Part shown: positions 31,308-35,436 of the stretch, in pieces
Position numbering within the stretch: position 1 is the stretch's first letter
How the letters are laid out: each line of letters opens with the position of its first letter
Source of the DNA: a virus
Length of the DNA stretch: 41,610 nt
Virus record (IMG/VR): IMGVR_UViG_3300032285_001011
Span: 1-41,610 of that record
Direction: 5' to 3' (one strand)
Notes under the pieces: model-generated
Told to the model about the DNA's origin: nothing
What the model saw: only the letters and a program-made list of their open reading frames with translations
Database searches by the model: none
Program-made: the position numbers and the translations under genes

Positions 31308-31739
31308 CTGAAGTTAAGCAAGCGATTTCTTTTAGTAGCCGCATTATCGGTAGGAATCGCAATAGCAACACCAGCAGAGGCTCAATCGCCTCAAAAGCAT
31401 AAACCCCTGCTAGTTGCTCGCACACCTGAAGCAGCTAAACAACATGCAATAAAACAGATAGCTGACTTCAAATGGAGTGCAAAAGAATGGAAATGCTTGG
31501 ATACGCTTTGGACAAAAGAATCAAACTGGCGACCAGAAGCGCAAAATAAACAAGCAGTAATAACAATTAAAGACGGCAAGCGTGTAAAAGCTTATGCAGG
31601 TGGCATACCTCAGATATTGGGAATGTCGCCCGATTTAAGCGTGGAAAGTCAAGTAAGACTTGGATTGAAATATATTCAGGCTCGATATGAAACTCCATGC
31701 AAAGCTTTAGCTTTTCACCTGCAAGCCAACTACTACTAG
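31308..31739 (+). CDS. exported lytic transglycosylase-like protein, probable CTG start
   Basis: 143 residues if begun at CTG 31308. From there the protein has a perfect Sec signal peptide (KLSKRF, then LLVAALSVGIAIATPAEA, cut before QS). No ATG, GTG or TTG lies between the upstream stop and this signal. The mature part has WKCLDTLWTKESNWRPEA, AGGIPQILGM and QVRLGLKYIQARYETPCKA, the E-S-x-W and G-I-P-Q patterns of SLT/Rpf-like muralytic domains. It would act outside the cell. A TTG start at 31497 would lose the signal and the catalytic N-terminal part. Confidence 0.7.
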   Translation: MKLSKRFLLVAALSVGIAIATPAEAQSPQKHKPLLVARTPEAAKQHAIKQIADFKWSAKEWKCLDTLWTKESNWRPEAQNKQAVITIKDGKRVKAYAGGIPQILGMSPDLSVESQVRLGLKYIQARYETPCKALAFHLQANYY

Positions 31740-31750
31740 GAGAGGCAAAA

Positions 31751-32287
31751 GTGAAGGCAACAAAATTATTTGCATACGCTGACCCTCCCTATTACAAAAA
31801 AGGGAAATTGCACTATGGCGAGCTGCATAAAGATGCCTATTTATGGGATAGCAAAGAAAGCCATTTAGAGCTAATACAAAGCTTAAAAGACAATTACCCT
31901 GATGGTTGGGCTATGAGCTGTAATTCTAATAATTTATGGTGGCTTTTAGAAAATGAGCCTGATATAAGAGTTTGTATATGGACAAAAGGTTTTCATCAAA
32001 TAAGACAATCCACTATTCAGTACGCCTATGAGCCTGTATTGCTATGGAATGGCAGAAAAGAACTTAAACGCAGACCAATGGTTAGAGATTGGATTAGCTG
32101 CAATATAGCTATGAGGCGTGGTTTGGTAGGCTCAAAACCATTAGCTTTTAATTTATGGATATTAGATTTATTAAACTACAAATTGGGTGACCAATTAGAT
32201 GACATATTTCCCGGTACAGCTGGTATGGCAGAAGCCATTAAAGTAAAAGAAGAATTATTAAAGACAGCTATAAATGGTGTAGCATGA
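31751..32287 (+). CDS. DPPY-type DNA adenine methyltransferase
   Basis: 178 residues from GTG 31751, with AGGAGAGG six bases upstream. Catalytic DPPY at 11-14 and an AdoMet-site FPGTAG at 153-158 near the C-terminus, with GSKPLAFNLWILDLL before it, show the permuted order of beta-type amino-methyltransferases. It would methylate adenine (or N4-cytosine) in phage DNA. It is short, so recognition may need a partner or be loose. Overlaps the C5 methyltransferase by 4 bases. Confidence 0.75.
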   Translation: MKATKLFAYADPPYYKKGKLHYGELHKDAYLWDSKESHLELIQSLKDNYPDGWAMSCNSNNLWWLLENEPDIRVCIWTKGFHQIRQSTIQYAYEPVLLWNGRKELKRRPMVRDWISCNIAMRRGLVGSKPLAFNLWILDLLNYKLGDQLDDIFPGTAGMAEAIKVKEELLKTAINGVA

Positions 32288-33225
32288 AAGCGGTTAGTTT
32301 ATTTGCAGGTGTAGGAGGCTTTGATTTAGCTCTTGAACGCAATGGCGTAGATGTTGTGGCATCAGTAGAAATAAATAAACAGGCTCGTTCAATTTTAGCT
32401 AAGCAATTTCCTAAATCTAATGTTTTGGAGGATGTAAAAGATGTCACAGGAAAACAGCTATTTGAATACGGATTCGATTCAGATGGAGTTATTGTCGGTG
32501 GATTCCCATGTCAAGACTTATCAGTTGCAGGAAAGCGTAAAGGATTGGCTGGCGAACGCTCAGGATTATTTTGGGAGATATACAGGCTTCTTGAAGAAAC
32601 AAAAGCCAAGTGGTTCATCTTGGAAAATGTACCTGGACTATTGTCATCAAACGGAGGAAGGGATTTGGGAATCGTCATCGGAGCATTGGCTGAACTCAGG
32701 TATGGGGTCGCATACAGGATTCTTGACTCTCAATACTTTGGAGTACCACAGCGCAGAAGAAGAATCTTTATTGTCGGATGTCTTGGAGATGACGGGGGAA
32801 CACCTGCAGAAATACTCGCTATCGCACAAGGCCGCACAGGGTATATTGAGGCGAGCAATACAAAACAAAAAAACACTTTCAGAACAGCTGCAAAAAGCTT
32901 TAGAAGCAGTAGCAACAAAACAATAGATAAGCCAACTATATTTGAAGCAACAAGAGTGAATGACAGTAGGTTTTATACTGATTATTCTCCAACAGTAGCA
33001 ACTTATTGGGGAACGGGTGGAGCAAGAGTTCCTTATGTGTTAAGACAAAAAATGCCAATACGCAGATTAACTCCATTGGAATGTGAAAGGTTGCAAGGCT
33101 TTCCCGATAATTGGACAGCTGGCCAAGCAGACTCGCATCGCTATAAACAAATGGGTAATGCTGTAACTGTACCTGTTGTAGAATGGATTATTAAAAGATT
33201 ATTGGAAACCCAACAGATTTCTTAG
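32284..33225 (+). CDS. DNA cytosine-5 methyltransferase
   Basis: 313 residues with all main motifs: FAGVGGFD (I), GGFPCQDLS with catalytic Cys76 (IV), LENVPG at 113-118 (VI), QRRRRIFIVG from 156 (VIII), and LTPLECERLQGFPDNW plus MGNAV (IX-X). It methylates cytosine C5 at a sequence set by the TRD at about 200-260. It likely shields phage DNA from host restriction. A 161-codon ORF is nested in another frame over residues 53-214. Confidence 0.92.
   Translation: MKAVSLFAGVGGFDLALERNGVDVVASVEINKQARSILAKQFPKSNVLEDVKDVTGKQLFEYGFDSDGVIVGGFPCQDLSVAGKRKGLAGERSGLFWEIYRLLEETKAKWFILENVPGLLSSNGGRDLGIVIGALAELRYGVAYRILDSQYFGVPQRRRRIFIVGCLGDDGGTPAEILAIAQGRTGYIEASNTKQKNTFRTAAKSFRSSSNKTIDKPTIFEATRVNDSRFYTDYSPTVATYWGTGGARVPYVLRQKMPIRRLTPLECERLQGFPDNWTAGQADSHRYKQMGNAVTVPVVEWIIKRLLETQQIS
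32441..32926 (+). CDS. ORF nested in the cytosine methyltransferase (second frame)
   Basis: 161 codons wholly inside the methyltransferase in a different + frame. GGAGG at 32427-32431 lies nine bases before the ATG. The product is polar and contains WESSSEHWLNSGMGSHTGFL, LNTLEYHSAEEESLLSDVLE and YSLSHKAAQGILRRAIQNKK, ending in a helix. From memory, phage proteins found with C5 methyltransferases carry the same ending (SLSD.LE...YLS.KA..GILRRA..R). This suggests a true overlapping gene; function unknown. Confidence 0.55.
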   Translation: MSQENSYLNTDSIQMELLSVDSHVKTYQLQESVKDWLANAQDYFGRYTGFLKKQKPSGSSWKMYLDYCHQTEEGIWESSSEHWLNSGMGSHTGFLTLNTLEYHSAEEESLLSDVLEMTGEHLQKYSLSHKAAQGILRRAIQNKKTLSEQLQKALEAVATKQ

Positions 33226-33511: not shown

Positions 33512-34195
33512 ATGACAACACAGAAAACTCTCCAGTTTTCAGAAGGCGGTTTAATTCCGACCTCACCGCTCCATCTTTTTGATGTGAAAATTCCTAATAT
33601 CAATAGCTCTAAATGGTTCATTAAAGAAACCAATCTGCTTACAGCTCGTAAGCTGGTGTGGGCTTATCATTATTTAGGTGAAGTAAAATTCATAGGCAAC
33701 AGGGTTTTTGGTTTATTTGCAGAAGAAAATGATGAGGGTGCAATGTGTGTTGGCGTAGCTGTATATGGCCCACTATCAGTTCCTAATTCAGCACAGTCAG
33801 CTTTTGGTTTACCAAGAGGAAATTATCCTGACTTAGTAGAGCTGCATAGGTTGGTTTTAATGCCTGAGTGGAATGGCAAAAACGCAGGAAGTTATTTAAT
33901 TGGTCGCTCTTTACGGATGTTAAAAAAACTAGGAATTAGAGCAGTAATATCTTATGCAGATACAGACCACCATTTGGGCAGTATTTATCAAGCTTGTAAT
34001 TTTACTTATCATGGTTTAACACCACAGAAAAGCGATTTTTTCTTTGCAGATGGCACTAAATTAAATAGAGGAAAAAGCAAAGGCATGGATGGAAATTGGG
34101 TTTTACGCTCACGCAAGCATAGGTATTTATACACATTTGATAAATCTTTAAACATAGTATGGCCGCAAGAAACATATCCAAAGGCGAATAAATGA
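33512..34195 (+). CDS. Mom-like GNAT DNA-modification protein
   Basis: 227 residues. The central GNAT-like core and ELHRLVLMPEWNGKNAGSYL with ISYADTDHHLGSIYQACNFT and YHGLT match the pattern of phage Mu Mom and related proteins (SYAD...H.G.IYQA.NF.Y.G). Mom modifies adenine in DNA to block restriction. Together with the two methyltransferases this makes a modification cluster. The exact chemistry here is unknown. It overlaps the Ntn hydrolase by 4 bases. Confidence 0.78.
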   Translation: MTTQKTLQFSEGGLIPTSPLHLFDVKIPNINSSKWFIKETNLLTARKLVWAYHYLGEVKFIGNRVFGLFAEENDEGAMCVGVAVYGPLSVPNSAQSAFGLPRGNYPDLVELHRLVLMPEWNGKNAGSYLIGRSLRMLKKLGIRAVISYADTDHHLGSIYQACNFTYHGLTPQKSDFFFADGTKLNRGKSKGMDGNWVLRSRKHRYLYTFDKSLNIVWPQETYPKANK

Positions 34196-34737
34196 CCACC
34201 ATAGTAGCTGTTCAGCACCCTAATAAAGTTGTTATAGCTGCAGACAACCAAGTAACAAGCACACGCAAATACCGCCATCACAAAATGGCAAAAATTACAA
34301 AGCGTGGTCAGTATTTAATTGCAGGTAGTGGAGAGGTTGCAGCTTGCGACATAGCCCAACACATATTTGTACCACCTAAGCCCACACTTGAAGATAAAAA
34401 AGATTTATACCATTTTATGATAGCTAAGTTTATTCCTGCGCTTAAAAAGTGTTTTAAAGATAACGAATACAAATGGGTAACCACAACCGAAGATGAAGAG
34501 TACGAAACTAAGTTTATGTTTTTAGTAGCTGTATGCGGTGAAGTATTTGAAATAGCAGATGATATGTCTATTACCCTAGATGAATCAGGCATTTATGGCA
34601 TTGGCTCAGGCAGTTCATTAGCTATAGGCGCATTACACGCCGGTGCAGACTTGGATACAGCTTTAGAGATAGCAGCTAAAATTGACCCATTTACTTCTGC
34701 TCCATTTATGAAAATGGAACAACAGAAGAATGGATAA
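34192..34737 (+). CDS. HslV/proteasome-beta-like Ntn hydrolase
   Basis: 181 residues beginning M-T-T-I-V-A-V. After Met removal the Thr would be the nucleophile. Asp18 (AADNQ) and Lys34 (KMAKI) fall at HslV/proteasome positions D17 and K33; YLIAGSGEVAACDI and YGIGSGSSLAIGALHAG match the family's other strands. It is probably a peptidase or amidohydrolase of unknown target. Host actinobacteria have proteasomes, so mimicry or interference is possible. No HslU-like ATPase is encoded. Confidence 0.78.
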   Translation: MTTIVAVQHPNKVVIAADNQVTSTRKYRHHKMAKITKRGQYLIAGSGEVAACDIAQHIFVPPKPTLEDKKDLYHFMIAKFIPALKKCFKDNEYKWVTTTEDEEYETKFMFLVAVCGEVFEIADDMSITLDESGIYGIGSGSSLAIGALHAGADLDTALEIAAKIDPFTSAPFMKMEQQKNG

Positions 34738-35055: not shown

Positions 35056-35436
35056 ATGGCACAAATAACAGTAGTAGGAAATGTAGGCACAGAGCCTGAG
35101 TTAAAGTTTTTTAATGGCAAGAATGGCGATTTTGCTGTTACTAATTTTTCATTGGCATACACACCCCGTGAAAGAAAAGGTACTGAGTTTGTAGATGGCG
35201 AAACAACTTGGTTTAGAGTTTCTGTGTTAGGAAAGCAAGCCGAGCTGGCAACTGAAATTAAAAAAGGTGACAAGGTTTTAGTAATAGGTACATTTAAGCA
35301 ATCTACCTATCAAGCTAAAGATGGCACAACTAAAACAGGATTGGAGATTAAAGCCGACAATTTTGCAGTTGTACCAAAAGGTTTAGCCAAGCCAAAGAAG
35401 CAAGAAGATGATGGGGGTTGGTCATCATGGAGCTAA
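35056..35436 (+). CDS. ssb: single-strand DNA-binding protein
   Basis: 126 residues with the OB-fold pattern: QITVVGNVGTEPELKFF, then TWFRVSVLGKQAELATEIKK and GDKVLVIGTFKQSTY. A short linker and EDDGGWSSWS tail follow; the usual acidic DDDIPF tip is replaced. It coats ssDNA in replication and annealing. The next HTH gene begins at its stop. Confidence 0.9.
   Translation: MAQITVVGNVGTEPELKFFNGKNGDFAVTNFSLAYTPRERKGTEFVDGETTWFRVSVLGKQAELATEIKKGDKVLVIGTFKQSTYQAKDGTTKTGLEIKADNFAVVPKGLAKPKKQEDDGGWSSWS

Follow-up and report, generated by a model that had tools for sequence, protein, structure and literature searches.

A conserved gene nested in the +1 frame of phage cytosine methyltransferase genes, with a probable role as a second enzyme subunit

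The window, the whole 41,610-nucleotide stretch of viral DNA analysed here, contains a C5-cytosine DNA methyltransferase (MTase) gene whose product covers positions 1–323 of the 324-position PF00145 model and carries motifs I–VIII, IX and X, with PCQ and ENV among them, in one unsplit and intact reading frame (frame 0). A second ORF lies entirely within this gene, beginning 157 nt downstream of the MTase start at 32284, and thus in its +1 frame, and extending from before motif IV (PCQ, codons 75–77) to past motif VIII (PQRRRR, codons 155–160). A sequence-only reading of this DNA had proposed a gene nested over motifs IV–VIII with a ribosome site of its own; its coordinates, frame and motif span are reproduced here, together with the spacing between GGAGG and the ATG (Table 1). 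In the AlphaFold2 model, the MTase is confidently predicted over approximately residues 1–181 and 258–312, while the intervening segment, where the variable region should be, is disordered.

Table 1. Coordinates of the nested gene, the surrounding methyltransferase gene and their features in the window
Feature	Position	Strand	Basis
C5-cytosine DNA methyltransferase, 313 aa, frame 0	32284..33225	+	PF00145 E 4.9e-74; M.HhaI E 3.2e-34
GGAGG, likely ribosome site of the nested gene	32427..32431	+	nine bases 5' of the ATG
Nested gene, 161 codons, ATG start	32441..32926	+	stop avoidance, fourfold-site constraint, residue conservation
QMELL, weak sliding-clamp-like peptide, nested residues 14–18	32480..32494	+	QLxLF-like peptides enriched here in relatives
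Conserved helical tail of the nested protein, residues 109–155, SLLSDVLE...LSHKAAQGILRRA...	32765..32905	+	conservation; AlphaFold2
MTase residues 182–257, predicted disordered, between motifs VIII and IX	32827..33054	+	AlphaFold2 pLDDT mostly 26–50
Motif IX of the MTase, RRLTPLECERLQGFPDNW	33061..33114	+	frame 0

Upstream, an ORF at 31697–32287 overlaps the MTase start by four bases; it contains a DPPY motif, gives weak matches to PHROG DNA methyltransferases (E 0.015) and is possibly an N6-adenine MTase. Directly downstream of the MTase lies a gene for a Mom-like DNA modification protein (33512–34195; PF25680, E 2.7e-27), followed by an HslV/proteasome-like peptidase (34192–34737; PHROG 1040, E 7.6e-30), and a single-stranded DNA-binding protein (SSB) is encoded at 35056–35436.

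The coding status of the nested frame was assessed against a null model in which synonymous codons are shuffled within each MTase, preserving both the protein and its codon usage. For the window MTase itself, the shuffles produce 7.2 +1 stops over codons 60–200 and none is seen, bearing out the suspicion that the frame is open beyond chance. Across 42 loci, 11 +1 stops are observed against 194.5 expected, while the +2 frame of the same loci displays no avoidance (330 vs 326). A second test on 65 non-redundant relatives (<80% identity) resolves this depletion along the ORF, with 4 stops against 126.1 expected in the N-terminal part, 0 against 42.9 in the middle and 0 against 28.3 in the tail; upstream of the nested ORF the +1 frame of the same MTases is not depleted (165 vs 141.2). 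Likewise, 21 C5 MTases lacking the conserved tail, mostly drawn from the same genomes as the nested-gene loci, show no avoidance (94 vs 102.7); two members of this set (loci L278 and L287) in fact possess a shorter tail variant and have no stops. Additionally, 47 of 63 loci possess a start codon with a Shine-Dalgarno site in the region where one would be predicted, against 14.9 expected; the +2 frame gives 8 against 10.3.

Substitution patterns point the same way. Before the overlap, fourfold-degenerate MTase sites differ in 0.66 of comparisons; the fraction falls to 0.47, 0.39 and 0.27 inside it and to 0.12 in the tail, where the periodicity is flipped and frame-0 codon position 1 becomes the most variable. 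Tail identity is 0.70 in the +1 frame vs 0.41 in frame 0, so that the nested frame is the better conserved of the two, and +1 residue likeness exceeds the level forced by frame 0 with z values of 4.1, 3.4, 19.0 and 32.5 along the overlap, compared with approximately 0 before it. The tail figure is partly ascertained, since the genome loci were found via the tail motif; the viral loci were not. Collectively, these comparisons agree with the suggestion that two proteins are evolving on shared bases: the two frames stay open in different phyla, only the +1 frame is depleted of stops, and neither frequent stops in relatives nor an absence of purifying selection, either of which would have counted against it, is encountered. 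Judged from sequence alone, the nested ORF is almost certainly a real protein-coding gene under strong purifying selection.

The arrangement is widely distributed. A tblastn search with the nested product gives matches in 87 phage records, and in all 12 loci first fetched the match corresponds to the +1 frame of an MTase gene; these include phages of Roseobacter, Mycobacterium, Pseudanabaena, Caulobacter, C. difficile, Streptococcus and Vibrio, as well as dmt of coliphage P1, where the +1 ORF lies at about 66728–67198 of NC_005856. The ORF is annotated in none of the 16 annotated records checked (these 12 loci and 4 more), P1 included. With the MTase protein as the sole query, 80 IMG/VR loci are recovered, and among the matches listed the +1 ORF is intact with the same tail. 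A genome scan with the nested protein yields 80 loci, distributed over Proteobacteria, Bacteroidota, Planctomycetes, Bacillota, Actinomycetes and others, 79 of them in the +1 frame of an MTase and the remaining one arranged likewise except that its MTase frame seems to contain an indel; in a Bacillota genome sample, 23 of 398 give a match. By these comparisons selection maintains the nested gene in phages and prophages of many bacterial phyla, and its frame is shown to be tied to one group of phage C5 MTases. Apart from a fusion described below, no free-standing copy appears in the phage, plasmid, genome or Bacillota searches, the frame having been checked for fetched loci only.

Searches of Pfam, NCBIfam, PADLOC and PDB, by sequence and by fold, return nothing significant for the nested protein, and no paper describing a nested gene in phage C5 MTases was found in the literature. 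The nested product does match the 139-position profile PHROG 16143, named 'DNA methyltransferase' (window E 1.4e-6; locus L088 E 5.8e-11), which indicates that some annotators probably called the nested ORF; the profile, whose members were not inspected, probably owes its name to the overlapping MTase. The sequence-only reading had described the ending as resembling phage proteins annotated beside C5 methyltransferases. The tail is indeed conserved among phage relatives; in the opened records, however, it lies unannotated inside the MTase gene rather than in a separate protein. A shorter variant of the tail, SLxDILExxVxxKYFLSxxxVxxLL followed by a stop, occurs in further C5 MTases, again in the +1 frame, where stops are few or absent (L008, L011, L177, L278 and L287).

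The nested protein modelled by AlphaFold2 with 56 relatives is predicted to be disordered over its N-terminal two-thirds and helical in its C-terminal tail (pLDDT 88–97 over approximately residues 121–160), a fold for which no PDB match is found. Near the N-terminus many members carry QLTLF, QLDLF, QLSIF or QISLF, of which the window has only a degenerate copy. The sliding-clamp consensus is QLxLF, and this motif is described as arising in different locations and frequently within unstructured sequence (PMC4549789). QLxLF-like peptides occur in 14 of 41 loci against 0.78 expected, and in 15 of 26 loci of a second group, discussed below, with motif IX in the nested frame, against 0.56 expected. 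In some Bacillota members with a later nested start, the peptide is located at other MTase positions (L120, L126, L136 and L150), and it is missing in many members. Without binding data, the peptide is a lead to a putative sliding-clamp interaction.

One tie between the nested protein and the MTase is provided by locus L288, a 500-residue bacterial MTase with all motifs in frame; after motif X it continues in a C-terminal extension recognised by the nested profile (E 1.4e-16). Besides the tail, the match covers the preceding part of the nested protein, which in other loci overlaps MTase sequence up to motif VIII. The L288 MTase groups with a nested-gene MTase (SH-aLRT 94), while its own +1 frame has decayed (6 stops vs 5.2 expected), a state that would be expected if the product works with the MTase and the fusion released it from the overlap. 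It is the single clear in-frame fusion, comes from a genome assembly, and has no relatives in a viral scan with the L288 C-terminus or in the Bacillota genome search. Nevertheless, it supplies a homologue outside overlapping MTase DNA, the absence of which would have spoken against the gene.

Further ties involve the MTase frame itself. At least 50 relatives have a split MTase, the break between its two ORFs lying close to where the nested gene ends, typically 89 nt past the nested stop; the 'fusion' labels given to L083 and L085 in this tabulation result from frame artefacts. In L136 and L311 the nested ORF extends into MTase motif IX or beyond, and L150 is similar except that no motif IX is detected; an assembly indel is not excluded in any of the three. 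Canonical MTases are also hit by the tail profile, in the in-frame segment that follows motif VIII (L263, E 3e-5; L277, 0.002; SPR, 0.01; others weaker), a similarity that is weak by profile alignment (hhalign probability 13%). Taken together, the disorder of MTase residues 182–257, the split MTases, the tail-profile matches, the strict co-location and the L288 fusion lead to the inference of a second subunit that supplies or orders the region after motif VIII.

Two-polypeptide C5 MTases provide the closest comparison. In M.EcoHK31I, the gene for the small polypeptide is nested in another frame of the gene for the large one. The large subunit of this enzyme contains motifs I–VIII, the target recognition domain and motif X, while the small one contains motif IX, and M.AquI is divided into a I–VIII part and a IX–X part (PMC3404938). 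Like M.EcoHK31I, the window encodes a C5 MTase with a second, smaller polypeptide, here an ORF under selection whose expression has not been shown; unlike it, motif IX resides in the MTase frame, and the nested tail is different and helical. Motif IX therefore cannot come from the nested protein, whose ORF ends before that motif begins, and a motif IX subunit in the EcoHK31I style is ruled out. Compared with M.AquI, the window MTase is unsplit, its single 313-aa ORF containing every motif, and the nested protein does not correspond to the IX–X half, although many relatives of this MTase are broken into two ORFs near the nested-gene end.

An EcoHK31I-like layout does look common in phages. A group of phage MTases (L175 and L183–L262) has no motif IX detected in frame 0 and a long nested +1 ORF, which in many loci ends in a motif IX-like LNPxWVEWLMG; these MTases form a separate clade with 100% support. 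This group resembles the window's kind of nested gene in having a nested +1 ORF over the same MTase region, stop avoidance (15 vs 138.5 expected) and often an N-terminal QLTLF, and differs in its nested C-terminus, the window protein being without motif IX. Between the two kinds of nested protein, similarity beyond the null is confined to the neighbourhood of the N-terminal QLTLF segment (z 7.7), with little or none elsewhere; homology is thus supported for that short segment alone and is not claimed for the two kinds as such. With motif IX in its MTase frame, the window pair would represent a new form of nested two-polypeptide MTase rather than the EcoHK31I type.

These observations can be accommodated by an overlapping gene whose product is an MTase subunit with a disordered arm and a helical domain. 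A second ribosome site on the MTase mRNA would direct +1-frame translation of a small protein comprising a disordered arm at the N-terminus, in which a sliding-clamp-like peptide is often present, followed by a helical C-terminal domain. The product is inferred to bind the catalytic polypeptide and may supply or order the segment that separates motifs VIII and IX and is poorly folded, acting in DNA recognition or as a hinge, by analogy with the small polypeptide of M.EcoHK31I that supplies motif IX. That the nested product is a second MTase subunit is probable, complex formation and role both being inferred; the explanation as a whole is favoured with reasonable but incomplete confidence, there being no expression, binding or activity data. 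More tentatively, the N-terminal arm might tether the MTase to the sliding clamp, leading to methylation of new DNA during synthesis, a speculative step without binding data. Equally doubtful is the extended version in which an ancient overprinted gene encodes an obligate second C5 MTase subunit, with a helical DNA-recognition or hinge module and a QLxLF clamp arm, for fork-coupled methylation of phage DNA.

The role in controlling the MTase originally suggested for the nested product is thereby refined, as the fusion and the strict co-location favour a subunit, while a separate regulator remains possible. Such a regulator, or else a decoy, might for instance inhibit the MTase or a host restriction system, and would be linked to the MTase gene merely by location and shared expression. 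It would suit a small protein with its own ribosome site and no catalytic motif, and the window MTase, with all catalytic motifs in frame 0, might work without the nested protein. A free regulator would, however, be expected to move, and every recovered copy of the nested protein belongs to this MTase group, the one in L288 being fused in frame to the MTase, making this alternative unlikely. Programmed +1 frameshifting out of the MTase into the tail, yielding a truncated MTase joined to the tail from an ORF without its own start, would account for the tail being the best conserved part and lying directly after motif VIII; it is strongly disfavoured because stop avoidance and residue constraint extend far ahead of the tail, start codons preceded by ribosome sites occur more often than expected, and the L288 homologue after motif X includes the pre-tail part. 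The absence of any second gene is scarcely credible: overlapping frames of conserved genes can look conserved, and part of the similarity is indeed forced, as the null values indicate, yet shuffling under a fixed MTase protein and codon usage leads one to expect many stops, a prediction that holds for the +2 frame, for the MTase ahead of the nested ORF and for tail-less MTases but not for the nested frame, and divergence by codon position flips in the tail, so that chance or forced similarity is ruled out unless an artefact common to all loci is invoked.

If the subunit reading is correct, many phage 'single-protein' cytosine methyltransferases would be two-subunit enzymes, and activity may have been missed where the MTase frame was expressed alone. 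The nested gene would be a very widely conserved overlapping gene in phages, unannotated in every record opened, P1 among them, and P1 makes its function testable in E. coli. The L288 fusion would offer a view of an overlapping gene whose product left the overlap.

Irregular MTase frames are seen in individual relatives. In L021, L022, L024, L033 and L045 the MTase is seemingly broken by in-frame stops, with motif IX onward in the same frame, which may reflect readthrough, decay or a split gene. In L145, a large intein-like insertion (CFPEGTLV...VVHNC) is located at the PCQ region of the MTase frame, and the nested ORF downstream of it is intact.
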